Positions 41,801-63,360 of a DNA stretch of 64,000 nt are shown here, in pieces; the stretch's first letter is position 1, and each line of letters opens with the position of its first letter. This DNA is from Membranipora membranacea. Lineage: Eukaryota > Bryozoa > Gymnolaemata > Cheilostomatida > Membraniporidae. The stretch covers positions 2,683,501 to 2,747,500 of the forward strand of contig OU612074.1 of assembly GCA_914767715.1 (NCBI GenBank), given 5' to 3'. The position numbers were made by a program, and so were the translations under genes. Below the pieces are notes generated by a model. The model was not told where the DNA came from and ran no database searches. It worked only from the letters and a program-made list of their open reading frames with translations.

Positions 41801-44800
41801 ACGCTTAATGCCATCGTTTTCGGTTGTGAAAGCTGTCAAAATTGTGTTTAAAATTTAACTAACTAATTTGCTAACTGTAATTATTTAGATCTAAGAGGAC
41901 CCCTCCTTTAATCAAGCTGCTGTTAGTTAGGTTTATTACTGACTTTTATTTTAGAATTTTCCCTTTTTCACAAGTCATAGCAATTTGAAAGCTGATACTC
42001 TGATTGGTCAATGTTTAATTACTTGACAATAAAAAAATCTTGGGCCATTCAGTAAAATTATGATGGTTTTAAACAGTTGCATAAAACACTCAAAAAAATT
42101 AATCAATCACAGAGCAAGGCCCATAGTTCAAGGGGAGGGGGCGCGCAAAATGCCAATTAGCGTGGCCTGAAATACGATGTAATGATTGTTAAAATCCACC
42201 GCATTTTGGACTTTAATTTGATTACTATATACGTTACAACACTTTGGACCAACCATCTGGTGTAACCATCTGGTGTAACCTCGTGCCCTCTCGGATTTTT
42301 GCCTCCCCTATCATTTTTTCTAAACTAGGGCCCTGCAAAAGTGAGGAGGAAAGTGTGGAATAATTCACATGCCTTTGTTTTAATTTTGTCCACTGCTCTG
42401 GTATTAATTAAGGTAATGTCAAAGACCGATCCGAATATCAACATATCATATACCGTTGGAAAGCTGCCGAGCTACTGAAAATATATACCTGAACAAAAAC
42501 TTGATTCAATGACGTTGTGTCATTTTAGGGAGGAAATGAGGCAGAAAACGCTGTTTTTGTCAAAGCATATGGGGGAGTCAAATTACATGCAAGAAATTTC
42601 AAACCAGGTGGAATGCATACTTAGAGATTGCATTCATCGTAAAATTTGATTTTCTTTGATATATGACTAGTCTAAACTGACTTTTTACGTCACGCCATAC
42701 AATGCATTTTTTTTTGTGAAGCCGTGAAAATATGTGAAATTTCAATCATTAATTCAAAACAGATCATAGGCTCGAAACAAAATTAATTATGATTTTCCTT
42801 TAGAGTACACTTCAAATGCCATACCTATCAATTTTCAACAAATTAGCTTGCATATTGCGAAAACAGTAGACTCTCGAACACAGCTAATATTTTTTGCAAC
42901 TTTTGCATAACGTCAAATGTGCTGTCCAAATGACCATTATTGTGGCTAAACAAAGTTTTTTTGAAAGTTCTCACATACGAAGCCGCTTTCATTAGCCATG
43001 TTGCACACAGGAAATGCCACAAGATTTTTTCCCTCCATCTTCGTTTTTCTTGAATTTAACGCAAAAGAATGCCAAAAACAGCTACTTTTTGGGACTTTTG
43101 AGGTGTTTTTGGCCTTTCTTTGCGTTAAATTCAAGAAAAACGAAGATGCAGTGAAAAAATCTGTTGGCATTTCCTGCGTGCACCATGGGTAATAAAAGCG
43201 GCTTCGTATGTGAGAACTTTCAAAAAAACTTTCTTTGGCCACAATAATGGTCATTTGGACAGCACATTTGACGCTATGCAAAAAATGCGAAAAATATCAG
43301 GTGTATTCGAGAGTCCACTGTTTTCGCAATATGCAAGCTAATTTGTTTAAAGTCAATATGTATGACATTTGAAGTGTACTCTGAGGGAAGGTCGTGATTA
43401 ATTTTGTTTCGAGCCTATGATCTGTTCTGAATTAATGATTGAAATTTCACATATTTTCACGGCTTCACCAAAAAAAATGCGTTGTATGGCATGACGTAAA
43501 AAGTCAGTTTAGACTAGTCGCATATCAAAGAAAATCAAATTTTACTATGAACTCAATCTCTAAGTATACATTCCACCTGTTTTGAAATTTCTTGCAATAA
43601 ATTTGACTCCTCCATCTGCTTTGACAAAAACAGCGTTTTCTGCCTCATTTCCTCCCTTTAATGACACAACGTCATCGAATCAAGTTTTTGTTCAGGTATT
43701 CATTTTCAGTAGAACGGCAGCTTTCCAACGGTATATGATATGTTGATATTCGGATCGGTCTTTGACATTACCTTAATATGAGATTGTTGTAACAGCGTGA
43801 TAAGATATTCAAAACAATCCTGAATGAAAATTGTAACTTCGTGCGACAAAACTCAACATAGTAGCTCCTGCAGGGACTATGGAATAATTCGTTTTTTTTG
43901 CACTTGATATCAACACAGAGTAAGGATATACAGTTTATACTCGGGTAACTGATCATGCTAATGGGGTAATTGTATCTTTTTAGCCACTATTACATGCATT
44001 CATTGACGAATTTTTTGTAGTGGCTTTGAATCAATCTGATTTTTCACACTAGATAATATAGTTTATACTTTGGCAACAGATCATGCTAACTGTATAGTTG
44101 TATATTTTTTAATCTGATTTTTTCACACTTGATATTATTGTATATAGTTGGGTCACAGATTATGCGATTAGTTGTACTTTTTTAGCCACTATTACCTGTA
44201 CTGTATTCATTGACATTATTACACAGATATTTGTATTTTCAGCGATTAGTGCTGACAGGTGTCGGTGTCAGTTTTGTTTATCTGATGACTTTTTCATTTT
44301 TGTAATAATCACAGCAAACAGGGTAAACATTTTAGAAAAAAATGCGTTTAGTATAGCTGACACCTTGAAGTCATCATTAGCTAATAGTTCTGCAAGGAAA
44401 ATACTCTTCTGCTATATTGAGACTTGAAATGCAGTGAGAGTAAAGTTGTATGTTTAAGTCTGTGTTTCTATCGTTAACAGGTTGGATATGGAGGATGTGC
44501 AGACAAAGCGCCCACCCTCTAAGATACCTATGATAGCCTTAGTGGTGGTGATTCTGATAGCCATAGCTCTAGCCATCGCTCTCGGGGTGGTGGTCAGTCA
44601 GAATAATGCTGCAAATCAAGCTGTAGTCGACAACTCTAACACTGATGGTCAATCTCAGGGAACGGACAGCCCAACTACCTCTGCAAGTAAGTGTGAGAGC
44701 AACATACTTACCATTCTAGTCGATCAATACAGAGGCCTACACACTATCGGATACTTGGAAACAGGAAAAATATTGATGTACGCAATTTTGCTAGATTTGC

Positions 44801-47800
44801 TCATTTTCAAATAGAATGTAAAGATGCTTATTTATTTTCGAATGTCATTTAAATTTTCAAGGTATTTGCACCACTTGCAATGGATACATTTTAGAGTTGT
44901 CACATAGATCATAATTTGTGTAATGCATCATGTAGGCTCCTGTAGACTGAGTGTATAGGTAGTTGGTTGCTTGAAGCCTCGTTTCACATGTCACCAACAA
45001 ACATTGAACTCGTGCGCCGATTTGTGACAAGGCTAACAGTAGCTTTCGGGAAGACCTGAAAACAAGAACATGAATACTAAGACAAAGTTCATCGCTCAGT
45101 ATAAATGTCATGAACTTTTCATTTTTCACTCATGTGGAGTTTTAATAGTCTTCTTCAGGTTTAATTCATCTTGAGGCTGCGTATTGATTGGTGAATCATG
45201 TCAACTTATAAAATCATGTCGGCACTGATTTAAAAGTATAGTTTTATTTGTACAGAAAAATTCTAAAATCGGCTACTTCCTTTTGCATGGGGAAATAAAG
45301 TATTAAATTGGACCATCTGGGCTTGTTGTGAGATAACCGGTTGAGAAAATGCAACTCCTATTGTAGACGGAATCACATATCCATTGGACCGCCTGCAATT
45401 TACAATATTTTACGCAGCAGCGCATGAGGTTGCAGTCAAATTATCTTTTGTTGTTAGATCAAAGTAGGGTTAATAAGGCTTACAGAGCCTTTGAAAACAG
45501 ATACTGGTATTCATATTCATAATTAAATTTGATCTGTCCCCATCTCAGTTAGGTCACAAAATAAGGACATTTCGTTGGTAAGATATTTTGTTTTTTACTT
45601 GGTATTGGATTAGGCAATCTCTGATATTCCAACATAGCCTGTAAAACCAGGCGAATTCTGTTATCGTGTTGGGGCTTCTCATATCCCTCTCTAACTGATC
45701 CTTGGTATCACAGGCTGACCGTTCCCTTTGTAATATAATCAGATCTCTACAGATAACACAGTTAGATTGTCCGATTAGATAGGTCCTGTTTGTACTGGGA
45801 TGAACTCAACTTATTTGCTCATCAGCTTTGCATGCATATAAAACAATAACACGAGAGTTTTGTCCTGTCCCTGCTTGCCACTGAACTTGATCTATTGTGC
45901 TTCTGTTGGTTGACAAGTGATCTTGTTACAACGTAAGCCGGGTTCAGAATACCTGTTGGGAAATAAGATGCTAATCCTGTTAGGTGCTTTTAAATTGAGC
46001 AGGGTTCTGAATAGAACAGGTTAATGTCCTATCAAGGAGTTGGTCCTATGCAGAAGGAACTTGTCATTTCTTTTAAATATGTTTCATGTCCTAACAATCA
46101 AAAATTTGATCAGACAACTCCTAATAATGTTTTATAAAGGTCACCTCTCAACAGGAGTGACCCTCCCTTTGGCAAGGGGCAACAAATGTGATAAGCTGCG
46201 GTGTTGAGGTTTCATCGACAAGTGCTATGATTAATATTAATATCAATTTTCAACAGACAAATCCAGAAATCATGCGAACCCTCAAATGAAAATCAATCTG
46301 GGTCAGCAATTTGAGAAGAAATTTGTTTACTTAAAAGTTCAAAAAGTGAGCGTGCTGAACAAATTGAATGCAATGATTAAGTTAGAAATGCCTTCGCTCA
46401 TTCTTTTTAAAGACCCATCGGTATTTCAAGCATTGGGCGTATAACAATCAACAGAAATGATATACAGGATAGAATATATCAAAGTATATTATTTTCTTTA
46501 TAGAGCCGTCCGATCCAGAAGGTGAAATCTGTATGACACCTGGATGTGTTCAAGCCTGTGAGTATATATCTTCTATATAGCCTTCTCGTCTTAGGGAAGG
46601 GGCGTCCCTGTAATATTAGTGAGGGGGTGACCCTCTAATATAAGTGAGGGGTGTCCCTCTAATATAAGTGAGGGGTGTCCCTCTAATATAAGTGAGGGGT
46701 GTCCCTCTAATATTAGTGAGGGGTGTCCCTCTAATATAAGTGAGGGGTGTCCCTCTAATATTAGTGAGGGGTGTCCCTCTAATATTAGTGAGGGATCGTC
46801 CCTCTAATATTAGTGAGGGGTGTCCCTCTAATATAAGTGAGGGGGCGTCCCTCTAATATTAGTGAGGGATCGTCCCTCTAATATAAGTGAGGGGCGCCCC
46901 TCTAACATTAGTGAGGGGTGACCCTCTAATATCAGTGAGGGGTGTCCCTCTAACATTAGTGAGGGGTGACCCTCTAATATCAGTGAGGGGGTGACCCTCT
47001 AACATTAGTGAGGGGTGACCCTCTAACATTAGTGAGGGGTGACCCTCTAACATTAGTGAGGGGTGACCCTCTAACATTAGTGAGGGGTGACCCTCTAACA
47101 TTAGTGAGGGGTGACCCTCTAACATTAGTGAGGGGTGGCCCTCTAATATCAGTGAGGGGCGCCCCTCTAATATCAGTGACTTCTGAAAATAAAATAGGGA
47201 GGGGAGGGATGTTGGCTTGCACTTCCTTCCCTGAAGCAAAAATCAACGCATCAGGCACTGCCCTAGTAAGTATGTGGTTTATGATACTACTGAGTACAGC
47301 TCTTTTGCAAGCTAAATCAAAATAACGACAGTTTTTGCCGCTATGACGGAGTATGGGGTCAGGTAAGCTTATGGTGTATAGTAAAAGATGATGAAAAGAG
47401 AAAATTAATCTCTATACCCCAATTATTATATTGGGTAGGTCCACCACATTTTTAAGCCCTCTTTGCTGGCTTTAAAAATTAGATAATGAAACATCAGCCA
47501 GGGAACAAAGCGCTAACTTTCAGGATGCAGAGCAGCTGCAAAGCGTTATTCATTGTTACGAAAGGCTTAGTAGGCTTAGGAGTGTTAGGAAAAAATAACA
47601 GATGTTAGTCCAAAAAAAGGTATAGAGATTATTATTATCTTCATTATTGTGATGTAACAACTTTTACATTTTTCTTATACCATAATTTACAGATAAAAGC
47701 TGCAATTAAAATTAGAGACCTATCAAATTTTGAAAATAGTAAGATTAACCTCATGCCATCCTATGCAGGCTTATGCCTGGGGCTTGAAGTTCCACATATT

Positions 47801-50800
47801 GGCCTGTAATATAAGCCCGTGTTAATATTATCTATCCTTTCCACCCAAAGTAAGCCATTAGAAGGCCACAGAATCCATTACAGAAAATAGGTTCAGGATC
47901 AAATTCAGAGGTGGACAAGTATTTCAGTGTGACCAGTGAGCTTCTTCCCTTGTCATTATCAATTAATAATTCTGATAGCCCTAACATGTGGTTGAATAAG
48001 AAAGATAACTCCAACTTCTAACATAGGAAATTCAGGCATTCTGAATTAAAAACATGTTATATTATTTAATAATAACAGAATATAATTTATTATATAATAA
48101 TAACACTATATAATATTTTAAAAAACTTATAACACTATATAATATATTACAACAGATTGTAATGACTGGTTGGCTTTTTTATTAGCGGCAGCACTAATGA
48201 ACGCTATGGACACATCTGTCGACCCGTGTGACGACTTCTTTATGTACTCATGTGGTGGATGGCTGAAGAAGAATCTCGTCCCTGAGGATAAATCCAGCTA
48301 CTCAACATTTACTAAGCTGAGAGATGAACTACTCGCCAATCTCAAAGGTAAACACACATTCAGTGATTATGAGTGTTTAGCTGGAATTCTAAAATCAGCA
48401 GAAATCTGATCATAATTCAACGAAGTATTTGCTCATCTAACTGTTATTTGGTTCAAAGAAACTCAAGCGGATCTCCCCTCACAGCAACAATCTCCACACA
48501 GCTGTCAATATGTGACGGGAGGTTTCCTTTTATATTATCATAAAAGATAAGAAATGTCCAAGCTAATTATCTACATATAAGATAATACATGATATACATG
48601 ATATATATGTTTGTGATTAGCTCTTCAGTAAGTTGACGCTAACCGGTATCCCAGAATGCACCTTTCTGGAATTTCCCATTGGGCTCAATTCAATGGGACT
48701 GACATGATCGGCCTTAGAGCACCAGGTCAAAGATGATTTGTGAGAATTTATTTCACAGGAATATAAGCAGGATCTGTTTCCATATAGTAATAATATTTAA
48801 GGATATTTTAACTCTAATTTGTGGCTTGGGTACTCCAAATTATCCCACTTGTGAGGAATGAAAACTGATGCCTCAAATCTGTGTCAGCCTCATGATAACA
48901 TTAAAAGACCCCAAAACTGTCGATCCCACCTCTTAGTGCCCCCCCCCCCCGCTTTGATCGCATTGAAATTAGTTTACCATCACAATTCACATTAACATAT
49001 CACACAACAACATGCATGTCAGTGGCTGGTCGTTCCTCACATGCAATAGCAATATTTTTTATTATCAATTCCATCGATCACATCCCTCACAGATCATTAT
49101 TGTGGCCTTATAGATGGATCAAAGATCAATAATGTAGTTATTGGTGGTGATACGAAATTATTTATGCATTTAAAATGATAATAATGACGATGGACAATGA
49201 TATCCAGTTTGTTTCAGAGTTTCCAAAAATCTTCTGCATTGACTTTGATGTTAGAAGTAAAACGTAATCTATGACATTCACTGAGGCCTATAGATAATGT
49301 AGGACACTGATCACTTGGTTACACCAAACCAAACTATCATAATTAGCCCTTCTATTCCTCGTCAGCAGCTTGCGTCATCATGACACAGTGTTCATATGTT
49401 GTGTCTAATAACAGGTTCAACGACCAAGCGAAAAAGGACCACATCAGGCTCTCCATTTCACTCACTTCTCTCTATGTGTGGTCAATTTATAACTTAGCTC
49501 TAAATAAGCAGTAGATTATTGAGGAGTAAGTTTTGGCCTTTGAAACTCTAGCCTCCTGTCCTGTCTGTGTATCTGCTCCTTGCATTTGTTATGTTTTACC
49601 TAATGAGCAATGGAGCAATGGAATGACCACCTCCCCATGTTTTGTCTTACAGAACAAAACAAAAAAATAAATGGCGCACTTGTGTCAACTTTTTATTTTC
49701 AAACAATTTGAATTAAATCTTTACAGCTCTGATGGAGGATAAGAGTGCGACGTCCGAACCAAGAGCTGTCACTGAGGCTAAGAATATGTATCAGGCCTGT
49801 ATGAATGTCGGTGAGTTACCAGCCTCAGATCATAGATCAGCTAGGGGGTCTTATGGTCATAACACACTAAGCTGTTGTAACCTCTAGAAGTTTGCACAAT
49901 GTCACCATCGTTAACATATATGCTGACAGCAGCCTCAGCTGATCCTCAGAGGTTTGATCAGCGATTTGCATGACATCACATTACTAATATATAATCCTCA
50001 GAGGATTAATGTGTATATAAACAATGATCGAGGATCTGCCGTGGTGGCAGCCTCTGTCAGTGTGTTTAGACCATTACGAATGATCTGAGGAGTTGCTGTT
50101 TAGCATTGGGAAAATGACTCGATGGCTAAACACTCTGATATTAATCAAGCCCTTATCTGTTGTTTTGTTTCCTAAATCTTAAATTCATCCATATTATAAA
50201 ACTGGTGTTTTCAAGGCCATATAATCTTGAATATAAATAACAAACAATCACATAGATAAACACAGGATTAAAAATGATGATTGTCTTGGCAAACAAATGA
50301 GTAATTAGCAGATCAGTTGGGTGCAAAAATTAAAATAAGAACATCAACAATAACCGATTATTTCAGGGTTCAGTAGGGCAGGACTGAATCATATAAGTGG
50401 AATGTGGGTCAGATATGAGTCCCACCCCTCACAGGGCAGTGATTGAACTGCTACCTCCCTCTGAGAGAGATTTACGGCTTGAGAAATATTTGGCCGGAGC
50501 TTAGCAAGCTCTTCAACCACTTTGATATCACTGTGTCAATAAAATTTAGGGCCTTGAGTAGCCTGAGTACCCTAATAAACATCATTGAAAAACATCCTGA
50601 GAGCCTTGCGCTACCTGAGGAGGGCCATTACTGTATTATTATCTTACGATGCTCTTATATCATACATCCCGGTGACCTTCGACTCCTGCTGATTAGCATC
50701 TTTAACCTGATGTCAATCTCCTCCGTACCAGCAACTGATTTTTTGGGCGTTTTCAAAGTCCCTGTTTTGAAAATCCTGTTGCTAAACCGCCATCTAATCA

Positions 50801-53800
50801 GGACAAAATCTGGGTCTAAAGTATTTGTAACGCATCCATGCTATCACCAAGCATAGCCACAGCCTAATACCTGTCCGGCTCTCAATAACAAGCTGATCCT
50901 ATGGGCAATGTGATAGAGATAAAGTTTCCTAGGAGTAGCAGGTGGCTCCGTTGGTTAGAGTGCGGTACTTTAGCATGCAAGTGTTGAAGGTCGTGGGTTA
51001 GAATCCCTCTGCAGTCTATCGACTACTGGGATTTGGTTCGGCCCCAGGTTTGCTCCGACCTGCCTGCAAACTGAGAGTGACCTGGCGCTGGCGTAGAAAT
51101 TGCAGCATTGCCCTTAAGGCAACAAATATTTCACCATGCATGCTTTGGGATGTGGCCTGTGATATGACCATCTGATTTTTTTAATTTTTGAATCAACCAA
51201 ACTACATCAACACAAAATAAAATAAAAATCAAGCCATTAATATATTGTAGCACACACATATATATTATATGTATATATCGAGCCCCTTGCCCATTCAGTT
51301 ATCAATTTGTTTCAGATTTGATTGACCAGAGAGGTGTAGAGCCATTACTGGACTTATATGATCACTTAGGCGGCTGGCCGATGGTTAACTCCACATGGGA
51401 TCCCAACTCATTCGACCTCATGTATACTCTGAGTGAGCTAAGGTTACTAAATAACAGATACCTGGTGGATATCTGGGTGTCAGCTGATGATCGAAACAGC
51501 ACCGTCAATATCGTGCAGGCAAGTTCTAATATTGAACGGAGTTTTCTCCCCTTGATAAGTACTTATATTTATCACATACATACTTTCTGAGTTTCTTTGT
51601 CCCCCTTGATAATTACTCACAGATATCACATACTGTCCGAGACAAGTCTATTTAGCTCTGAAATGTTTTTTGAGGTTTTTAAAAGTGGTTCTCAATGTAA
51701 ATGGTGTGCAGTGATATAATTAATAAACTACAAGACGTTATTGCCAGTTGAAAGTGCCATGTACTCTCTTTCTTAAAACAATAAATTATCAATAAAAAAT
51801 AGATGGGTCTCTGATCCATAGGGGTTGATCACAGGGTGCACTTCTTGTCTGGGAAACAGCTAGAATTTGTTTGATTATTATGACTATTCAATCACTTGTC
51901 ATGTGAGGTAAGAAATTGGGAGTTACCTTCCACTCTTACATGATTCCCAACAGCTTATGAAATATTATTAGACTTTGGATATCAGCAATCGGATTTCTCC
52001 ATACAGCAACAAGAAAGCCAACAATATAATGGCAAAAGTATAGCCAACAGTTAAATCGCAAGCGTAAGGTTGGATGCCCATGTAGTGTTCTAAATAGTCT
52101 GATTTTTACAACGTTTTACTTTATATCTAGCTCCTTCTCTGACCTTGGTCCATATATTTTGCAAGTATGGTTTCCCATCAGCAATTTATGATGTTTAGTT
52201 CTTCCAAAGATGATAAAAACAGGTCAAACACAAATTTATACGCGTAATGTTCACTTTTGAGCTGAAACATATTATCATACTTGATCCAGTTAAGTTTAGA
52301 GTTTAGAGCTTATTTTATTTACCATACCAGTATCGATCACACAAAACATGCAGATAGAATTGGATGGTCTATTAAACAAAACAGGTTATGCTCTCTACTG
52401 AATAAAGATATTTCTGTTGTTAGAAAATCTCATCAAAATTTGAAAAAAAAAGTCTTGTAATGTATCCTCTTGTAATGTAATGATATTTATTTCCAGTTGG
52501 ACCAGTTTGGACTTGGTATGGGTAACAGAGATTATTTCCTGGAGACTCAGTATGCTGAGAGAATGGCAGCTTACAAAACATTCATCACTGATACGGCTCT
52601 GTACCTGAATGGCACAGCCGCTACTGTCGAGCAGGATGTCAACGATCTCATAGAGTTTGAGATTTATTTAGCCAATGTGAGTGTTAGCTTAAGGTCTCAA
52701 GTTGTACCTTAGAATAAAAAAGGGGGGCAACAATTCCGCCAATGCTCTTATGCTACGTCTAACCTAGCTTTGTCACGCGGCTACTTTTTTGTTACCCTCA
52801 AAAACAAAGAAGAAGCAGCGTGATATATTGTAAAATTTTATTGGAATACTCAATACTGCCATTATAATTAAATTGATTATGATGATGGTATTCTAACTAA
52901 CTTGGTGCAGCATGACTGACAGTATATTATGTACTGTGTGCTTATGTATTATGTATTATGTACTATGTATTTGTGTATTAGGTGTTATGTATTATGTACT
53001 ATGTACTATGTACTATGTATTTGTATCATGTACTTATGTAATATGTACTTGTGTATTATGTACTTGTGTATTATGTACTTGTGTATTAGGTGTTATGTAT
53101 TATGTAAGTTGTAATTTGTACTTACGTATTGTGTATTATGTACTTATGTATTGTGTACTTTAGTTCTTATGTTTTATTTATTTGTAGATCACAGTACCTA
53201 AAGAGGAGAGAAGAGATGCTGTAGCTCTCTATCGTAGATATAAAGTATCTGAGCTTTATACAAACATATCTAGTGGGGTAAGTCTGAGAACAACACATTT
53301 ACACAAACATATCTAGTGGGGTAAGTCTGAGAACAACACATTTATTACGATTGGGATTATTAGCGAAAAATGTTTAGGCTACTATTTCAATAGTTTCAGA
53401 ACTTCTCTGATCTGACACAAAATTGATGTGTGTAAACATGGCACAATTGAAAGAATGAATGTTAAATGTTATCTCACAATGTCGTTCTGTTTTGTAACCT
53501 CCCCTCAACTCAACATTTCGCTCATGAAGCATTGAGAATTTGCAATCTCTCTCTACCATCCTCAGCGCTTTATAACGTTGTCATTTATGTTTTATATTCT
53601 ACAGTTTGATTGGCTGGTGTACTTGAATAAGATATTTGACTCAGTAGATTATGAGTTTACTAACGACACTGAAGTCGTAGTCTACTCACCAGTCTTCCTC
53701 AAAAAGGTCAGTACCTCTAAGTATTCTCTCTTATAATTTTTCCCTCTACAAACAGAACTCTATCATTCCATCAATTTTTATCAGAGACATTGAATATGAA

Positions 53801-56800
53801 GTCTATGTTCCACCACAATTAATTATTTAAGAACTTCATGAAGAATTTCATGCCACAGGTAACAGACACATGTAACCTAAATATAATTTTACGTCACGTC
53901 ATCAATCTTAAATGAGTTCTGTTCCCTTTTCTATCGCAATATTTTGAACAGCATTTAAGGATACAGAACACTCATGCCAACAAATTGCGAGCTATATTGA
54001 AGTTATGGTCAGCCAACGACTCCTAGCCAATGCGTTGGCTCTTATTGGTGGATGGGGAGAAGTCTACCAACCACTAACCAATCAGAGCCAACATATTGGC
54101 TAAACCACACCTACAGCTGTAGAGTATATTTCAATGTCAGTGATGTTGTTTTAGATACATCCATGTACACTTCACCCTTCTGATTTCCTTCAACATATTA
54201 ATAATGTACATTTTACAGATGGTAGAGAAGTTACAGACAACTCCAAACAGAGTGGTGGCTAATTATCTCCTCTGGAGAATCACAGCATACAGAATATCTA
54301 ACCTTCCTCAGTCAATGCAAGATATCGAGTCCAAGTTTAAAGAGGTAGAGAAACACACTGGTTTGTGATCTGTAAGGTCCAAGTTTAATTCCCAGCACCG
54401 GCAGTCATTCCTGATTTGGTTCTGGTGCGCCATTGATCCTGCCACGTCCTTGTAAAACGGGAGTAAAAACACTGTTGGTCCATTGGGTGTTTGCACACCC
54501 CACATACAGTAAAAATATCTGCATCATCGATAAAAATAGTAAACAGAATTCCGGCGGGCAAGGGTATAGGGATGTATGTACCTATGAAGACTGCTATTTA
54601 GATCAGGGAGTTTTGGGAATTTGTCCTAACTCCCTGATCTGATACACTATACCTACTGACAAGCCGCAGCTTTTTGCACGCGACTTACCAGTACAAACTT
54701 GATCCGGAAATACATTGACGCTCTCCTACAGTTATATATAAACTGTTAAGTTACTGCCTTCGACTAGAGCTGGTTTTTGACCATGTTTGATAAATATGGT
54801 CTGCAGTAGCAAAATATTTTGTTTTAAGAATGATTTAATATTGGTTACCACACTAGACACTACTACCCAGGAATAACCGTTAGTATCCTGCCTTGTGTAA
54901 GGATTTGTATGGATATATCTCACAAATTTATCAGAGACCCTAGCCAATATGTTGGCTCTGATGGTGCCAATCACAAATCATCAATCAGAGCCAATACATT
55001 GGCTACAGAGACCTTGAAAACAATTATCTTAGCAGGCTAACCCAGAAGCACTGATATGTGAATACTTGTCTTTTCCTCTATATCAGGTGTTTTACGGAAT
55101 CTCTGCGGAGCCTCCAAGATGGCAGAAGTGTATTAGTTATGTGAACTCATTCATCGGTTTTGCTGTCGGACGACTTTTCGTTAATGAATACTTCAACGAG
55201 GCATCTAAAGCTTCAGTGAGTCATTAGAGTCATTATCTTGACATATTAGAACTTTTAATTTTAATGTCTGGCCCAATTTAATGTTTTTTATCCAGATAAA
55301 AATAGAAAATGTTCCCCAACTCTTAAACTGAGCTGCATCTTGACCTTATGTAAATATATATAACAAAAGAGTCAAGACCTTTATCACCTCCTGATGAACT
55401 TCCCCTCTAAACGGCCAACCAAATGAAGCGATGATTGATTTCTCTAAACTTAATCTTATTCCACTCCATTTCAATATCAGTATCATAAGATTACGTACAG
55501 TCAGACTCAGTTTCCATTTATTATATGTTCTCTCATTATCTCCCCTCGTTTTATCATCTCACCAGGCACTAGAGATGATCGCCGGAGTGAGGAGCTCATT
55601 CGATGGATTACTGGAGACAGTAGAATGGATGGATGACGAAACGAGAGCTGTAGCTAAACAGAAGGTGTGAAGTGATAAACACTTATTAGGGATGGGGAAG
55701 TGACTTCCCCTGGCTAGGGCTGCCAAGTGATTGATGCCACATGATTCAAGGAATAGAATCCTTGGGGAGCACGATTTTTCCAGCACACAGGATATGCACA
55801 TACAGCTCATACATAAGTTGGAACACAAAACTAGTACTATATGAACTGCAAACTTTAACATAGATGATATTCTGTTGAGCCGCATATCTCAGTCTGTCAC
55901 CGACTCCATGCTCAACTCTTACCTTCTGGTTTTGACCTTGAATGTAGTGTTTGACATATTATTATTATTTATATACATATATATATATGTGTTATTATAT
56001 AATATTATACAAAGTATTTGGATATTTACAGTCAGCAGCCATATCAGAGAAGATCGGATACCCAGACTGGATTAATAATGACACGAGACTTAACGAGGAG
56101 TATAAAGGGGTAAGATATTATACTCTGAACTAAATCACACATCATCTGATCTAACTCATATTATATCAAGGTTGATCCATTTAGCCATAATTTGGAGTTG
56201 CTCCCCTTGAGCCTTAGGCCACAGTGGCTTCCTGGTAGAATGGGAGTGACCCAAAGTGCAAGCAAACTAGATTGAAAACTTTTACTTATTCTATTATTTT
56301 CAAATTGTGATATTAAAATTTAAGGTGTGCATCAGTCTCCTTGCGAATCTGGTTGACCTGTATTGTATTCAATATAAGGAAGATTAAGTCTTACCGAAGT
56401 ACAGGGGGTAACATAGATTCTTTAGAGGCACTGGCTTTGCGACAACTAGATTTCAATGGATTCTTTGTTTCCACCATACCTTTATTATACGACAGTATAT
56501 CCGTGGTTGACTTGCAATATCGAGGATACAATAAACATGACTGTAGAGGGAGGGGGGAAGATGGCTAGGACGCTATATTGATGGTAGTCTATATCACTCT
56601 GCTCATGTGCAAATTGTTAGGCAATAGGCATATGTTCGTATCTGCAGCATAGCACCTGAGATAATTCACATAGACTGAGTACCTAAATTGAGAACACTGT
56701 AGAAACCCACAAATTGGAGTTATTTGGGCTTCAATGGGACTCAGGTTTGGTATCTAATAACCTTGATCTCTGGGACTCTCCTTTCTTGATGGAAAGTAGC

Positions 56801-59800
56801 GCCGAAATTGCTGTGCTGCAGAGATAGACTGTGTAACAAGGCTGTCCTACAGACAGAATTGTAGGATGTAGGGTACTTTCGTCACTCATGATGACTACTT
56901 AATATCCTGTTATAGCTGGCAATGAATCCTGATCAGTATCTAGAGAATCATCTCAATGTATTGAGGTGGACAGTTAGAAAAATGGTGGCTAAAATTGAAA
57001 AGCCGACTGACAAGGAAAGGTACAACCAAATTTATCTACCCTTAGGAACCGTTTGATCACAAGCATCCGTTTTTACCCTGCTTATCTCCCTGCCTTGTTT
57101 TCGAGTGTTAGATGAGAGATTTTGGACTTGACTTGTGATATAAACTCAGTTAAGCCATTACCAGTTTACCTCGCACGAGTCCATTTTATGAAAATGAACC
57201 AACTACTTTTGATCTACCCTCTCCGATTTATTTGGACCTTTCTATCTGCATTCTTTCCAATATATTTTCTTTGCCCCCCTCATCAGCCTGTAGAATATCA
57301 TAACCATCTTTTGCTGCAATACTCATATTATATTTAATGTATCAAAATGCCCCCTTTACCCGACTAACAGCAAGCTGCTGATAAATTGGTAGTCATCTGA
57401 TTTTTATCATTGAGTAAATAACTCTCAATGACTGTCAAATCTAGAGTTTTGGTCTCACAAAATTCTATAATATCTCTACAGCATTTATTCAGTTAGTTGA
57501 TGTTACCTAAAATTGTAATAGCTTGTAAATTTAAAACCCAAGCTAAAATCTAACGAAAATAACCCCAATACCTGATGACCTGACCACCCTGTAAGATATG
57601 ATTTGAGTTATGTAAATCTATCAAAGTTTTATGAGAGTAGACAGCTTCTCAAGCTAAATATTTTAGAATAAAGTACTAAAGAAGTAGTAGTTATATCATA
57701 ACGCAGCTCTACTTCATGGATAAATATGATTTTGCAGATTGAATCTGATCCTGGCACCCAGTTTGAGAATTCATTAAATGTTGACCGTTTGGATGTGTAC
57801 TATAACTTAAAACAAGTGGGCAGTCTGATTGATCGAGAAAGGTAGGCGGCTGGTTTATAATGATGCTGCTTGATTAGACTATGTATGGGATTGTGGTGCC
57901 TGAGAGGTGTAGTTCGGTTATTTGCAGTTTAGTTTTAGTTTCCGTGAATGAATAGTGCTGCTTAGATCAGCTTTAGTTATTGAGTGGTCTAATTTTTTGG
58001 CCATTATTGCGTATCGTAGTAGTGCTTAAATTATCGTTGGCTAAAAGTAGATTTGTGTAAATCCTTCAAATGAAATTTGTTATTCTGGTAGATGAGAATA
58101 TGATTTGTGTAAAAATTTTGTGCCAAGTTCTCAAAGTTCATTCACATCACCATAAACAACATATACTTATTTGTAAACAGATTTGTAAAATAAAAACCAA
58201 GCCTAACCGTTGTTTCTGAAATGCTGACAACTCTTAGCAGCGGGCTTATAAAATAGAGAAATTTGCTTCCTGCCAATGCCTCACACTTCTAGGGTGATAT
58301 CTGTGATGATAGGATAACTAAAAAGCGTCATTGTAGATTGAAGCCGATCCGGACACATACTTTGAGAATGAACTAAATAACCTAGGTGTTAGCATGTGTA
58401 CCTATGTCCTAAAACGGATTGGCAATCCAGTTGAGACAGTTGTTATTGGGTTGCTGGTATTTGACCCTGTGGTTGCCGTAAAAAACAGGGATGGGGCGGT
58501 GCTGCTTGGTTTAGCCTCAGCTTCTTAGTCTATCTTTGGTCTACTCATAAACATATTTATTTTTCATGAGTATCCTAGGTTCTAAGTACTTCGTCTCCCA
58601 ATGTGCTAATTTTCATTGTTGAGTAAACCCCATAACAAAAATTATTATTAAGACTATGGTACACCCTAGGTCAATTTGCATTCAAATGGAATTCATACAT
58701 TATCTCCTGCCATAGAATTTTGCTCAGTTTCAAGTTTTTTTTTCACCTCCCCGGTGATATGTTAAGGACATCAAGGGAAAAGATAATCATTAGCTAGGTC
58801 CTGGCTTTCTAAGATATATCACTGTCTAGGCTCTACTTCATTTGCAACTCATCATGGACACATACGGACCCAGGGAACATGGACACATATGAGTGCATAT
58901 GTGTCCAGAGAACATGGACTCATCATGGACACATACGAGTGCCCTTATGATTTTTGGACGTTGCTTAGATTTATCCCCCCCCCGCTTTATTTCATCAGTT
59001 TCATATTATCATTTTTCATTGAACCTGGTATTACGGGGCTTCATATTATGTAGCTTAGTATTATGGATATTGCAGGTTTTGACTGAAGATAATAAGCATT
59101 TTGAGAATTATAATGTTAATTTGGAGTGGACTGTGAAAAAGGCAAACAAGCGGATTCATGAGCCTGTTGATAGGGAAAGGTATAACGCAGCGGCTAAAAT
59201 AAAACCACAGCTTAACAGCTAAACCTTACTGTGTGATTAATTAGCGCTCTCCACTCCTCTCCTCAAACACACACCTGCTTTGGTGATTGGGCTGTTTTAA
59301 GATTAATGTCAATATAGCCTGAATGGTGATCTGATTTGCTATATAAGGCTCTAGTAATGATTATGGTAATAATATGTCCTAAAATGAAGGGGCATTGATA
59401 AGGTCACTAAGCTGTGTTTCCTACCCAATCACACCACAGTCTGACCTTGGGAGCAGTGATGCTCTCAGTCTATGATTTTGCCTCTATTACCAATAGCTTC
59501 TTTATGCACCCTTGCTTTATGCTGCTTGCTACTTCCCATCCAGATTATCGGAAAGATTGATGGAGATAAATATTTTGAGAATTACCTTGTCGGAATCCGC
59601 CATTCAGCAATACAAAAGTTTGAAGATATAAATAAACCAATTGACAAGAACAAGTAAGTGAGACGGCCTTGACCTTTGCCTCTGTGAACTCTAAGCCTCC
59701 GGACAGACCATTTATTATTTATATAGCTTGGTTTATTGGGTTTATTCTTCCTGCTGCTTGTGGTTTTTGTATGAAATGTTTTGTTTCCGTTGCTCTGTGC

Positions 59801-62800
59801 ATCTGAGACCAAGATTCCACCCCTATTGTTTGATTTTCCTCAATATCCGCAATACCTAGTTAATATTGATACCTTTACTTCCCATGAATGATTATCGGTT
59901 GTGGGAAGGCTGTCTGTTATGTAGCTCTGTTGATGCAATCATTTGGAGAGATAAATTGAACTCAATGGTCCCTATACCAGTAGTGTCAACTGTCCCCTCC
60001 TGCAATGAAACAAATATATCTCACATGTATGTGGTTTGTGTGTGCTAGTACTACAAACCTACTATCTCCCAACATCATAATTTGTTTAGAAAACAGACGT
60101 AACTCAACCTTGATCAATCTTTGTCATTCAAAATTACCCATGATGCAATATTTATAATTGTAGGTGGTCAACTGTTCCAGCTATAGTTAACGCATTCTAT
60201 AGTTCCAGCAAAAATCAAATATGTAAGTTTCAACATATTAAAAAGTGTTTTGATATTTAAAGTTTTAAATGCAAATTTAGCCAGACTATTTACTCTGTAA
60301 AACTTTCTTTGCAAGTCCTGCTTGTTTATAAGTATGGTTATGTTCAAATAATCAATCATGGATAATGAAAGACATTGCTTCCCCTTATGAATATTTTCTA
60401 GAGCAGTTTGTTATATGTAGATGTGAGAATGCTATGATTTCCATCGCTAGAATTCGCGCAATGTCATGATTTATCTGCTATAACAAGTTATTCCGATCAT
60501 CATGTATTATTGAAATCACCTAGCCGTTTTGTATATTATAACATGTAAATGAACTTACTTTATGACAGCTTTCCCTGGAGGTGTATTACAGCCACCGTTC
60601 TGGTCAGCAGATAGACCTGAGTAAGTATCACTTACACTAGTCATATATTAGACTATTACATGAATATCTCTGATCGATAGAAAGGAAATGTGAATTGGTT
60701 CATGTAGCTTGAGTACCACCAGATGGAGCTCGGTGTTACAATCTGAGGATCATTTCTGAAATTGGGACGGGCACACATGAGGTACTCAGACTATATTGAC
60801 TCTTATTATCAGAGATACACAGACTAAATTGTGTAATATCAATGTCAGCATGAGAATCATACATCATATACTATCTCTTTATCGATGACATTGTGATATG
60901 ATGAGGTGTTATCCACCATGTTTAGTCTTGGCGTCATTTTGCTCAAGAGAAATCATCACAAATCCCTTTCTCTCTGTATCTCAAACTTATTCGGGGTTCC
61001 CAGGCGCTGCATTTCACAGTTTAACTTCTTGGAGTAGTTAATTTTTAATGAAAAATGAAAGTAAAATAATAAGTATTTGATAATTATTGTTGTAGATCTA
61101 TGAACTATGGTGGTATAGGAATGGTTATAGGTCATGAGATCACTCATGGGTTTGATGATCAAGGTATTTATAAACACTGTGTTCTAAACTTTATTCAGAC
61201 GATGAATGTTGGCCTCTTCTGACAAGTTTAGATACCTTTTTATGACTCTTGATTGGAACTGTGTTTATTTACGTTAAAGTTTATGTAATGCATATTTATT
61301 AGGCTTTTAAATCTTTTCATATTAGGGTGCTCTACACGGATACACATAAGAGAGCACTATAGAGCTCCTAATGTTTGTGGAATTACAGTTGTTTACATTC
61401 ATATATCAGTTCCATACAGATATAAGGTATATAGTTTTTTTTACTTTTCTCTTACTTATATTCTGATTCTCAGGCCGACAGTTTGATAAGGATGGTAATC
61501 TGGTCGAGTGGTGGAATCAGGATGTCACTGAGGCTTTCACAGATAAAGCTCAGTGTATCATTGACCAGTATGGTAACTATGTGATGCCACAAATTAACAG
61601 AACGGTATGTAGGGATATTCACATGTGATTTTACCTTGGCGAACGCAAATATATGAAAGTTGGTCTTGTGGGAAATGTGTGAATATGAGTTGTCCCATCT
61701 TTGATATTTAGAGGATAACTTCTTTTATATATTTAGGTTATGTGCAAAATTGGGGGTGTTGCATATAGAATGAGCGATGCCTTTAACAGCAAATTATCAC
61801 TATCACATCCCTCGAAATCATCCCTAAGTCGGTCTTTCAATTAGATAAAATAATTCCCAAATCGCTCACACATTGATGTAAGTGAGTGAGCGATTTGTTA
61901 GTGAGTCCTGCATCGGATAGCGATTTTGGTTATTTTTATTTTAAAGACCCCTGGTTGGTGTAACTTGATGAGAGCAATGATACTTTAACATATGTCAAAG
62001 AACCAATCAATGGTATATGAGGGTTGACTTATCTAGAACAACTGGCTACATGAGAACATTAGCAATGTGTATCATCCATTGAGAAATCAGTGCAATGGTT
62101 TTACTTTGTTTAACTTTTATTAGTTGAATGGAGTGAACACACAGGGAGAAAACATCGCTGATAATGGAGGTATAAAACAAGCCTTCAATGCTTATAAGGC
62201 TTATGAAGAGAAACACGGGCCTGGTCAACGACTCCCTGGCTTAGAAACCTTCAACTCTAAAAAACTCTTCTTCATGGCATTTGGCCAGGTGAGTTTTTCA
62301 CACAAGCTGGAATCGGTTAAAATGATTGGGAGAAAGTAATGACCGATAAAAATGACAAACAAGACACCCAATATTTCCAATCTACAAATCCACAAAATTG
62401 TGTCACGTAGAAACAGGAGTGATTCTCAAGCTCCAAAGGACCTGACAGCGTGACACATGGAGAAATGGTTACTGAAAATGATGCTAAATTTGTTGTGAAT
62501 TCATAAACATATGAAGATAATGATGCCTCGAAAACTAAATTCTCACTTCACTGTTTAGATCAATGGATGCATGAAAAAGTCTGCTGGCACGAAATATCGT
62601 TAAAGAATTTTTTTGTTAGTCGGTGTGCAACTTTTTTTCTCAAACATCCTCCATTATTGATTACTACTGACTTCTTCTGGTGAATATGTAATCATTCATC
62701 CAGACCTCCACCACTGGGCACTGCTACTGGGATGGATTCAAATTTACTCTTTACTCAGATGGTATGATTTCTCATTACAGATATGGTGCAGTGCTTACAA

Positions 62801-63360
62801 AGATGCAGGATTAGACAATGCTATAACTACAGGTGTACACAGCCCTGGAATGTACAGGTAAGGTCAAAGGTCACATTAGGTCATATAGAGGTCACGTAAG
62901 GGTCATATAATGATCATAGGGGTCATAGAATGTACAGGTATGTACCATGCCTTCCACTGCTCGATACAAACATCTTCACCCAATATTCAAACATATTTAT
63001 CACATTTTTTATATTTTTTCCTTCCTATCAATCGGTTGATCACCAGGGCACAACCTTTGCTGAAGTGAAGGGTAGAATTCTAAGTTACGACATCACTGAT
63101 GTTAAACATCAACAAAAATCTCGTATATTATAAAGTATGATTTGATTTGGACTGATCAATGTCCTTCATCATTTAAATGGTGCAATAGCGACATTTAGCA
63201 ATATCAACAAAAAAGTTTAAAAAAGAGCTAAAATCTACTTGTTTTGTTGTTATTTTTCAGAGTTATCGGAACACTATCTAACTTTGAAGAGTTCTCCAAC
63301 GTTTTCCAGTGTCCAGCTGGGTCTCGGATGAATCCAACAGATCGATGCTCAGTCTGGTAG
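38792..63360 (+). CDS. M13 family zinc metallopeptidase (neprilysin/ECE-like), 21 exon positions
   Basis: Constant exons: 44481-44686, 46504-46557, 48186-48347, 49727-49810, 51316-51518, 52497-52676, 53188-53277, 53605-53706, 54219-54344, 55087-55215, 55566-55664, 56032-56109, 60164-60222, 60569-60620, 61096-61163, 61474-61604, 62124-62288, 62781-62857, 63261-63360. Add one of three first exons and one cassette from 56916-59653. Length is 764-780 residues, normal for M13. It is a type II membrane ectoenzyme: short cytoplasmic tail, one signal anchor ([20 protein letters not shown]), then a large extracellular domain. Key motifs are NAFY (60189-60200, substrate backbone binding), HEITH (61133-61147, zinc and catalytic Glu), ENIAD (62148-62162, third zinc ligand and Asp), HSPGMYR and terminal CSVW. 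Family enzymes trim small peptides at the cell surface. NEP versus ECE orthology cannot be settled from motifs alone. Confidence 0.93.
40551..40618 (+). CDS. M13 peptidase alternative first exon 1b (ATG 40551)
   Basis: ATG at 40551 opens [20 protein letters not shown] then SH and ends in phase 2 before GTAAGT, joining the exon at 44481 in frame (778 residues). Start context is acceptable (A at -3, G at +4). Upstream, CTACAG at 40458 and CCAG|GTAAGC at 40476 may delimit part of its leader. A polar, Asn/Gly-rich cytoplasmic tail results. Confidence 0.65.
41365..41699. mobile_element. Small inverted-repeat element containing an exact 135-bp duplication
   Basis: ACGAGCACAAAAT on the left (41365) and ATTTTGTGCTCGT on the right (about 41687-41699) form terminal inverted repeats. 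Between them 41386-41520 and 41521-41655 are two copies that look identical over 135 bases. Each copy carries CTATATATAATGG, a TATA-like string; the second begins about 115 bases before the ATG of exon 1c. Confidence 0.6.
41629..41637 (+). promoter_or_regulatory. TATA-like box upstream of exon 1c
   Basis: TATATATAA lies about 108 bases before ATG 41745, with its duplicate 135 bases further upstream (41494-41502). Position suits a promoter for exon 1c, but AT-rich strings are common here. Confidence 0.25.
41745..41770 (+). CDS. M13 peptidase alternative first exon 1c (ATG 41745)
   Basis: ATG at 41745 (A at -3, G at +4) opens MASSTSKT and ends in phase 2 at ACTAG|GTGAGT, joining 44481 to give ...[17 protein letters not shown] and a 764-residue protein with the shortest cytoplasmic tail. 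It directly follows the inverted-repeat element at 41365-41699. Confidence 0.7.
42412..43772. mobile_element. TTAA-flanked long-inverted-repeat element, copy 2 (near full length)
   Basis: The 1,361-bp element begins GGTAATGTCAAAGACCGATC, ends with its reverse complement, and is bordered by TTAA (42408-42411, 43773-43776). Each arm is about 640-670 bp, so the element is almost one long palindrome centred near 43090. The central segment GAATTTAACGCAAA...TTTGCGTTAAATTC lies around a short loop whose orientation is opposite to that in copy 1. Arms differ by small changes, which shows age. There is no transposase. It sits between exon 1c and the first common exon of the peptidase gene. Confidence 0.85.
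43900..44215. repeat. Degenerate tandem repeat, about three copies
   Basis: CAC(A)CT(T/A)GATA..., TTTATACT..., CAGATCATGCTAA and TTTTTAGCCACTATTAC recur with starts near 43901, 44045 and 44124. Copies are unequal and diverged. Located in the intron before exon 44481. Confidence 0.5.
44481..44686 (+). CDS. M13 peptidase exon 2: signal anchor
   Basis: This first common exon (phase 2 in, phase 1 out) encodes [16 protein letters not shown], then a hydrophobic helix of about 24 residues ([20 protein letters not shown]) and an Asn/Ser/Thr-rich stalk. Positive residues on the N-terminal side (KR...K) fix a type II orientation with the catalytic domain outside. Confidence 0.88.
44687..46503. other. 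Intron, nothing recognised
   Basis: A 1.8-kb AT-rich intron with no exon-like or repeat structure beyond short low-complexity runs. Confidence 0.5.
46599..47183. repeat. 24-bp minisatellite with palindromic unit
   Basis: About 24 units of AGTGAGGGGTGTCCCTCTAA plus TATA/TATT/CATT run in tandem. Each unit contains GAGGG...CCCTC; some (GAGGGGCGCCCCTC, near 46890 and 47155) are perfect palindromes. Variation between units is mainly TGTCC/TGACC and AATATA/AACATT. Because 24 is divisible by 3, long frames are open on both strands, but they are repeat artefacts. It lies in the intron after exon 46504-46557. Confidence 0.92.
48186..48347 (+). CDS. M13 peptidase exon 4: start of ectodomain
   Basis: It encodes [20 protein letters not shown] and [20 protein letters not shown], the highly conserved N-terminal block of M13 ectodomains (DPCxDFxxYxCGGW), with cysteines that form structural disulphides. 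Acceptor TTATTAG at 48185 was chosen because it restores the frame from the previous phase 1 exon (46504-46557, [18 protein letters not shown]). Confidence 0.88.
48348..49726. other. Intron, nothing recognised
   Basis: A 1.4-kb intron with a poly-C run at about 48940-48951 and no exon-like content. Confidence 0.5.
50938..51170 (+). repeat. tRNA-derived SINE candidate
   Basis: TGGCTCCGTTGG (50944-50955) is one change from box A TRGCNNAGYNGG, and GGTTAGAATCC (50996-51006) is two changes from box B. The tRNA-like head is followed by a GC-richer body (GGCCCCAGGTTTGCTCCGAC, GAGAGTGACCTGGCGCTGGC) up to an AT-rich end near 51170. It lies in an intron of the peptidase gene in sense orientation. Confidence 0.65.
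51316..51518 (+). CDS. M13 peptidase exon 6 with a GC donor
   Basis: It encodes [20 protein letters not shown] through NSTVNIVQ. It ends at CAG|GCAAGT, the usual GC-AG intron consensus. The next exon (52497) starts [14 protein letters not shown], and the joined [11 protein letters not shown] matches the family's conserved (I/V)xxxDQ...L block without gap. The only nearby GT (51513) would delete two residues of that block. Confidence 0.85.
52917..53172 (+). repeat. Low-complexity TGTATTATGTACT repeat
   Basis: Short units TGTATTATGTACT, TATGTACTTGTG and TATGTACTATGT alternate for about 250 bp just before the acceptor at 53187. Open frames encoding Tyr/Val/Leu/Cys strings are artefacts of the repeat. 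Confidence 0.85.
53260..53345 (+). repeat. 43-bp tandem duplication carrying a splice donor
   Basis: ACAAACATATCTAGTGGGGT and the following AAGTCTGAGAACAACACATT are repeated at 53260 and 53303. The GGG|GTAAGT donor of peptidase exon 53188-53277 is therefore present twice. Use of the second adds 43 nt and shifts the frame, so the first must be the productive site. Confidence 0.85.
54600..54640. repeat. Hairpin, GGGAGTT family
   Basis: AGATCAGGGAGTT pairs with AACTCCCTGATCT across a GGGAATTTGTCC loop. Intronic. Confidence 0.65.
56916..57019 (+). CDS. M13 peptidase cassette exon A
   Basis: 104 nt, phase 0 in and phase 2 out, acceptor TTATAG, donor AAAG|GTACAA. Encodes [20 protein letters not shown] and [15 protein letters not shown]. 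It fits the family block with Tyr-x-Glu-Asn, then basic residues and a P-x-D-K/R pair before the conserved Trp of the next constant exon (60164). It is the most canonical of the five copies, so probably the ancestral form. Confidence 0.85.
57738..57841 (+). CDS. M13 peptidase cassette exon B
   Basis: 104 nt with the same phases, acceptor TTTTGCAG, donor AAAG|GTAGGC. Encodes [20 protein letters not shown] and [15 protein letters not shown]. Keeps FEN and the terminal DRER but loses most of the basic residues and the Pro seen in A, D and E, so it may give a distinct surface. Closest in sequence to the decayed copy C. Confidence 0.75.
58337..58440 (+). pseudogene. M13 peptidase cassette exon C (donor lost)
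   Basis: The acceptor CATTGTAG is intact and the frame is open: [20 protein letters not shown] then [14 protein letters not shown]. Where A, B and D have GAAAG|GT, this copy has GACAG|TT, so no donor exists at the aligned position, and the conserved D-x-E-R end is also gone. It is probably a dead exon derived from the B lineage. Confidence 0.7.
59076..59179 (+). CDS. M13 peptidase cassette exon D
   Basis: 104 nt, phase 0 in and phase 2 out, acceptor ATATTGCAG, donor AAAG|GTATAA. Encodes [20 protein letters not shown] and [15 protein letters not shown]. Retains FEN, the W-T-V helix shared with A, and PVDRER. The upstream reading frame is open by chance, so the acceptor, not an ATG, defines the exon. 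Confidence 0.82.
59544..59653 (+). CDS. M13 peptidase cassette exon E (two codons longer)
   Basis: 110 nt, phase 0 in and phase 2 out, acceptor CATCCAG, donor ACAA|GTAAGT (the strongest of the set). Encodes [20 protein letters not shown] and [17 protein letters not shown]. Two extra residues lie before YFEN compared with the others. It is the copy nearest the downstream constant exon and resembles vertebrate neprilysin-type sequence well. Confidence 0.83.
60164..60222 (+). CDS. M13 peptidase constant exon with NAFY motif
   Basis: One base completes the Arg/Lys codon of whichever cassette is used, then [19 protein letters not shown]. Asn-Ala of NAFY (60189-60200) binds the substrate backbone in M13 enzymes. 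The conserved Trp follows the cassette directly, so cassette choice changes the segment abutting the active-site cleft. Confidence 0.88.
61096..61604 (+). CDS. M13 peptidase active-site exons (HEITH)
   Basis: Exons 61096-61163 and 61474-61604 encode [23 protein letters not shown] then [18 protein letters not shown] and on to PQINRT. HEITH (61133-61147) supplies two zinc-ligand His and the catalytic Glu. All residues needed for catalysis are present, so an active enzyme is expected. Confidence 0.93.
62124..63360 (+). CDS. M13 peptidase C-terminal exons
   Basis: Exons 62124-62288, 62781-62857 and 63261-63360. The first has [20 protein letters not shown] with the third zinc ligand Glu and the Asp that orients the zinc His. 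The second has IWCSAYKD and HSPGMYR, where the Arg positions substrate. The last ends CSVW-TAG, the family's C-terminal Cys-x-x-Trp. A second copy of GAATGTACAG|GT lies near 62928-62939, 80 bases after the real donor, and may be a cryptic donor. Confidence 0.92.

Follow-up and report, generated by a model that had tools for sequence, protein, structure and literature searches.

A probable frame-enforced array of mutually exclusive exons in an M13 peptidase gene of the bryozoan Membranipora membranacea

Tandem alternative versions of one exon are well known from the exon arrays of insect Dscam1 and from the clusters of muscle myosin heavy chain genes. In some such arrays, RNA pairing of a common site with selector sites is involved. 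Isoforms of M13 peptidases have also been described, those of ECE-1 coming from alternative promoters. The secreted form of the M13 enzyme MMEL1 arises by alternative splicing (PMC7822871). For the recognition of mutually exclusive exons, the passages of the 2011 study used here name similar length, homology, and conserved splice sites and reading frame as criteria (PMC3228551). Such exons have also been surveyed in human, with criteria given at the RNA level, namely junction reads from every exon that span the others, and an absence of exon-to-exon reads except where joint inclusion causes a frame shift (PMC5740500).

The window analyzed here, i.e., the whole stretch of 64,000 nucleotides, comes from chromosome 10 of Membranipora membranacea, and a neprilysin-like M13 peptidase gene spans about 44.5-63.4 kb of it. 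The exons and cassettes of this gene described below lie on the plus strand, and window positions are numbered from its first base. Thirteen constitutive exons (53188-63360) joined with one of several cassette exons give an open reading frame of 459 residues (cassettes A, B, or D) or 461 residues (cassette E), which carries NAFY, HEITH, and ENIADNGG and closes with the M13 CxxW motif. On the joined 459-residue A form, PF05649 (E 1.5e-55) and PF01431 (E 4.9e-72) were both detected, placing the product in the M13 family. The top protein match of this 459-residue query was a neprilysin-like protein of Watersipora subatra, isoform X2 (P0001), with 56% identity. In the spliced model, six constitutive exons lie upstream of the cassettes (53188-53277, 53605-53706, 54219-54344, 55087-55215, 55566-55664, and 56032-56109), each with a length divisible by three and the last directly preceding the array. 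Seven more span 60164..63360 on the 3' side, namely 60164-60222 (NAFY), 60569-60620, 61096-61163 (HEITH), 61474-61604, 62124-62288 (ENIADNGG), 62781-62857, and 63261-63360 (CSVW stop).

Further upstream, exon limits were set by eye. The region 44481..44686 (ATG at 44488) is a candidate first coding exon. It is predicted to encode the cytoplasmic tail and membrane-spanning segment of a type II protein, and its reading frame resembles the start of P0001 as far as layout goes. A tblastn search with P0001 placed M13 N-terminal exons at 48186..48347 (E 6e-17) and 51316..51518 (LGGWP; E 2e-16), and further N-terminal exons at about 49727-49811 and about 52497-52675. An exon for the CTSSGC stretch of P0001 was not found between the start at ~44.5 kb and the N-terminal exons at ~48.2-52.5 kb. 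By its predicted anatomy, this is a peptidase gene of the type II ectopeptidase kind, complete but for one exon.

Several other features were observed in and around the gene. At 53255-53344, a 43-nt unit that includes the donor of exon 53188-53277 occurs in tandem (2.1 copies, 97%), so that another GTAAGT donor follows 43 nt farther downstream, out of frame, and the exon ending at about 51518 has an apparent GC donor (GCAAGT) instead of GT (51513-51524, by eye). One intron of the peptidase gene holds a 24-nt minisatellite with 24 copies (46598-47179), and two others contain short inverted-repeat stretches around AGCCAA...TTGGCT (54010-54105 and 54930-55010, by eye), perhaps the remains of small mobile elements. 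Outside the gene, a 135-nt exact tandem duplication (two copies, 100%) was found at 41385-41656, and long open frames without a Pfam match occupy 30619-36613; the last of these has a hydrophobic tail (NNWHIIAGVGILVAASAIGMALMIKNRH) and perhaps encodes a tail-anchored protein.

The preliminary description of this DNA had claimed five tandem homologous copies of one exon of the M13 gene, and recomputation of frames, coordinates, and splice dinucleotides bore this out. Cassettes A (56916..57019), B (57738..57841), and D (59076..59179) have 104 nt each and cassette E (59544..59653) has 110 nt; all four are intact, open, enter in phase 0 and leave in phase 2, and are preceded by AG and followed by GT, with the junction to 60164 reading AG/G or AA/G. 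The introns between the five cassettes measure 718, 495, 636, and 364 nt. Cassette C (58337..58439, end approximate) is degenerate: it has an acceptor, it has lost the donor and the last codons, and its homology is clearest in the first half. Since the expected donor place reads CAG/TTG, its length of 103-104 nt is nominal. The lengths of 104, 104, 104, 104, and 110 nt and the common passage from phase 0 to phase 2 that had been claimed for all copies thus hold for A, B, D, and E and not for C, which lacks the GT. Cassette C would be open and leave in phase 2 by way of just two GT, at 58450 (113 nt, TGG/GTTGCT, weak) and at 58528 (191 nt), and its rescue through either donor is unlikely.

Splice sites were scored with a small matrix built from the gene's own 13 acceptors and 12 donors, the constitutive sites being scored leave-one-out. 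With this small own-gene matrix, the donors of A, B, D, and E scored 2.7, 6.1, 4.8, and 8.6 (constitutive range 1.1-10.2) and the acceptors of A, B, and D scored 3.7, 6.2, and 7.3 (constitutive range 2.6-9.4). The acceptor of E, at -2.1 on the same small matrix, lies under all 13 constitutive acceptors, while C has an acceptor of 2.5, just under the constitutive range, and a donor of -1.3. As for the earlier claim of four copies with good acceptors and donors, the AG/GT dinucleotides bear it out and the low-scoring acceptor of E speaks against it. An internal AG at 59554-59555 in cassette E would also give a 98-nt form, in frame and without the first four residues.

The homology of the copies was compared with chance by means of the 907 segments of 86-128 nt, on either strand of the window, that are open, bounded by AG and GT, and 2 modulo 3 in length. 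Scored against A, D, and E, the remaining members of A, B, D, and E reached 7.9-32.8% of the self score, and no unrelated segment exceeded 6.5%; cassette B ranked 5th of the 907 segments against each of the three, and the 98-nt form of E also stood high, being part of E. The 113-nt form of cassette C reached 15.0, 6.5, and 4.7% against A, D, and E, with no standout against D and E. Pairwise, the percentages of self score were 32-33 for A-D, 21-22 for A-E, 23-24 for D-E, and 20-21 for A-B. Those of B-D (12-13) and B-E (8-9) fall under the 15% minimum named for the homology score of PMC3228551, to which our self-score measure is similar, not identical. Set against the published criteria, A, B, D, and E have similar lengths (104, 104, 104, and 110 nt), keep splice sites and frame where C does not, and are homologous overall, even with the two low values of B. 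They are also internal, being flanked by constitutive coding exons and not part of tandem gene copies.

The copies are strongly diverged. Compared in pairs, A, B, D, and E have nucleotide identities of 0.40-0.52, corresponding to about 0.77-1.2 Jukes-Cantor substitutions per site between copies, or ~0.4-0.6 per site per copy if the distance is split equally, and dN/dS was saturated or not computable for many pairs. Cassettes B and C are each other's closest copies and share 48 nt at 77% in a match that extends into the upstream intron. Short intron stretches also recur among the array introns, although such two-copy short matches can be chance. Similar intron stretches beside the copies fit a duplication of the exon plus intron. 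A different origin, such as an assembly error, haplotype copies, or remnants of tandemly copied genes, might be suggested by the large tandem cluster of M13 paralogues that lies elsewhere on the same chromosome. We consider it highly improbable, as all copies are only 34-52% alike in ungapped nucleotide comparison, far beyond haplotypes, and the assembly rests on HiFi long reads (PMC10290214). Besides, the tblastn search with P0001 revealed no further M13 exon between the cassettes, and the leftover of tandem gene copies was rejected on this ground.

The reading frame sets a strict rule on the use of the cassettes. We assembled each of the 16 possible subsets of A, B, D, and E in their order along the gene, and only the four single inclusions remained open to the natural stop, which upholds the previous claim that exactly one cassette is usable by frame. 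The other 12 (the empty subset, six doubles, four triples, and the one quadruple) run into a stop that lies 525-830 nt ahead of the last junction. This corresponds to the frame part of the joint-inclusion criterion in PMC5740500, with a frame shift or early stop in 12/12 non-single subsets. In the same survey, 377 (60%) of the human clusters include exons whose length is not a multiple of three, indicating that the frame is an ordinary means of enforcing single use. Two paralogues in the genome have a single block exon, of 104 nt (L050) and 110 nt (L040), with the same phases as in the array, so the frame rule was probably inherited with the duplicated asymmetric exon, and joint inclusion would have been harmful from the start. 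In paralogues L046-L049, the block and the next exon form a single exon.

The same premature stops could serve a control of dosage, in which one cassette makes the enzyme, an added or skipped cassette leads to unstable messages, and the versions are functionally near-equal. The position of the stops in all 12 non-single subsets, where decay is expected, would suit such poison exons. We regard this as improbable, since several distinct versions of the peptide were retained, and a simple generator of stops would have no need of them.

Considering how one cassette might be chosen, we examined the mechanisms known from other clusters. Steric interference involves fewer than 50 bases from donor to branch point (PMC5740500) and is ruled out here by the length of the introns between the cassettes (364-718 nt). 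No U12-like donors were found among the cassettes. For docking, the best intron site for pairing was sought and compared with shuffles and then with control introns of the same gene. The best site in the 5' intron was a G-rich tract at 56540-56567 with a summed pairing over four introns of -106.4, reached by none of 10 shuffles (mean -98.0, sd 3.8, best -104.5). The pairing energies of this tract with the five introns preceding cassettes A-E (-20.5 to -28.2 kcal/mol) are almost matched by those with 11 control introns (-18.0 to -27.2 kcal/mol). On the 3' side, docking reached -86.1 against a null mean of -86.1, and 10/21 shuffles were as good. Docking-selector RNA pairing is thus not supported, the G-rich site being little better with the array than with control introns. 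The choice may be made by protein regulators, or by simple competition, with wrong messages decaying afterwards.

The conservation of the cassettes was assessed with a foreign-species profile, built from 87 of 119 proteins of other species (32 were dropped for a mismatch to the anchor pattern, and P0001 was omitted). Over 155,812 bases, cassettes E, A, and D scored 34.9, 31.8, and 27.5 bits. The first half of C reached 21.2 bits, whereas B had 9.4 bits with an E value of 0.21 and came below one false match of 11.5 bits. Among 18 scanned paralogue loci, 13 (L046-L050, L051 with L052, and L053-L059) showed exactly one block, scoring 20.5-35.0 bits, and no further match exceeded 6.6 bits. The block of L040 was weak on this profile (2.9 bits), and none was recognised by the same scan in L039, L041, L042, and L043. 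The scores of A, D, and E (27.5-34.9 bits) fall in the range of the single-block paralogues.

Neutral drift was simulated from A, D, E, or a paralogue exon, with 4000 runs each per distance, and an open frame, both splice dinucleotides, and the bit score were taken as criteria; as indels were absent, these simulations favour the neutral case. At a distance of 0.4 substitutions per site, none of 16000 runs retained 27.5 bits or more, and 65/16000 (22, 17, 7, and 19 from the four starts) retained 9.4 bits, the score of B. At 0.3 and 0.2 per site, 27.5 bits were retained in 8/16000 and 62/16000 runs, respectively. As A, D, and E kept their profile scores and neutral drift at the estimated per-copy distance does not, the sequences indicate that these three cassettes were under selection through much of their separate history, by which their present use is not proven. 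Cassette B was probably under selection for part of its separate history.

These results bear on a relic array, in which one cassette (E most likely, or A) is spliced in and the rest are decaying like C. The lost donor of C and the divergence of B (9.4 bits) agree with such a state, and so does the lone named bryozoan form seen, P0001, which has an E-length block. On the other hand, the scores of A and D lie among those of single-copy paralogue exons. Neutral drift at 0.4 per site did not reproduce such scores in 16000 runs, and they were kept though the nucleotide identity among A, B, D, and E is just 0.40-0.52. Overall, a relic seems unlikely to us. The state of C shows that copies of the array can decay, so further ones may be out of use at present, and the neutral scores retained at 0.2-0.3 per site are compatible with a recent loss of use.

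The block of P0001 has not only the length of E but also the same two-residue-longer start (LLGHIDPTKYFEN), and the name "isoform X2" suggests that another isoform exists. Among the best 120 matches listed, from a database clustered at 90% identity, there was no other Watersipora subatra form. In the transcript search, for which four isoform fragments of 154-156 residues served as queries, an array-like block was absent from P0121, P0123, P0125, and P0128 (among the best 120 of 4668 matches) and from P0062.

The M13 paralogues clustered in tandem on this chromosome lie at about 21.46-23.26 Mb (loci L046-L059), and the cluster has more M13 genes than loci scanned, the loci being our own grouping. 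Seven near-alike members (L053-L059) have ITASYH or MTASYH in place of the VNAFY of active enzymes; L051 is like them, but its sequence ends at this site. At the equivalent site, L046-L049 read VIDAYY and L050 reads EINSYY. These altered sites suggest that many cluster members may be altered in substrate binding.

In the 459-residue model, the cassette provides residues 209-243, between PF05649 (1-193) and PF01431 (252-458). It aligns to residues 499-533 of human neprilysin 1dmt, nine before Asn542 (the numbering being chain index plus 53, with construct residues 54-749; PMC4908401). Neprilysin is described there as two domains around a large cavity, with the side chain of Asn542 bonding the inhibitor amide (PMC4908401). 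Of the earlier statement that the block directly precedes NAFY and joins the two lobes, the Pfam limits and the 1dmt alignment support a position between the two halves of the enzyme. HEITH, NAFY, and ENIAD are all in constitutive exons and none is in the cassette. As the earlier description proposed, a swap of the cassette might conceivably change substrate choice or lobe closure. More specifically, and only tentatively, one could imagine that splicing swaps the segment between the halves to make three or four ectoenzyme versions that differ in cleft closure or peptide preference by zooid, tissue, or stage; we think this possible, yet doubtful.

We consider it quite likely, on the evidence of the genomic sequence, that the locus is a mutually exclusive exon array which arose by tandem duplication, with three to four usable alternatives, a decayed C, and exclusivity enforced at least by frame. 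In the scheme that we propose, an ancestral exon of 35-37 residues in an M13 ectopeptidase gene would have been duplicated in tandem, together with part of the flanking intron, yielding five copies. At least A, D, and E, and probably B too, would be alternative exons used one per messenger RNA, C being a decayed copy. Any number of A, B, D, and E other than one would lead to an early stop, and the message would be removed or yield a protein without the catalytic half. The outcome would be three or four enzyme versions that differ solely in the stretch separating the two protein halves, immediately ahead of the NAFY segment that contacts the substrate. We infer that splicing picks one cassette at a time and that folding, stability, partners, or peptide choice would distinguish the versions. 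An RNA-seq run of Membranipora membranacea exists (ERR6464929; PMC10290214).

If the versions are expressed in different cells, they would form a natural enzyme series differing in one 35-residue stretch beside the substrate-contacting segment, and the role of this stretch in the M13 enzymes, a drug-target family, would be directly testable. If the versions moreover differed in cleft closure or peptide preference, the enzyme would be tuned by a swappable module and not through additional genes, in a genome whose M13 genes have also multiplied in tandem. The locus also adds a clear frame-enforced exon array to Bryozoa, and its dead member C shows the birth and death of copies.

Full-text searches of the open-licence literature, outside which most subscription papers fall, revealed no homologous exon array in M13 genes; a Schistosoma transcriptome paper names neprilysin and mutually exclusive exons in separate places, and among the titles listed for peptidases more broadly none was fitting. 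A search of the same literature on bryozoan splicing likewise revealed nothing relevant on mutually exclusive exons. The known M13 isoforms of MMEL1 and ECE-1 arise by other routes than a homologous exon array. The gene itself is an ordinary member of its family, resembling neprilysin and ECE-1 (PDB 1dmt, 4xbh, and 3dwb) over the 459-residue model with the HExxH, NAFY, ENIAD, and CxxW motifs. As an array of alternative exons the locus is well supported, with mutual exclusion as the most likely mode of use, and it represents a known design in a gene where it was not expected. Like the Dscam1 and myosin heavy chain arrays, it would provide one protein region in several versions from tandem exons, although, unlike docking-selector arrays, it is without supported RNA pairing. 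As in known mutually exclusive clusters, the exons are neighbouring, internal, and homologous, of similar length and the same phase, and their joint inclusion shifts the frame. The Membranipora array differs from those clusters in its host, a bryozoan M13 peptidase, in having four usable members and one dead one, in being known from sequence alone, and in the strong divergence of its copies, with 21-33% of self score among A, D, and E.
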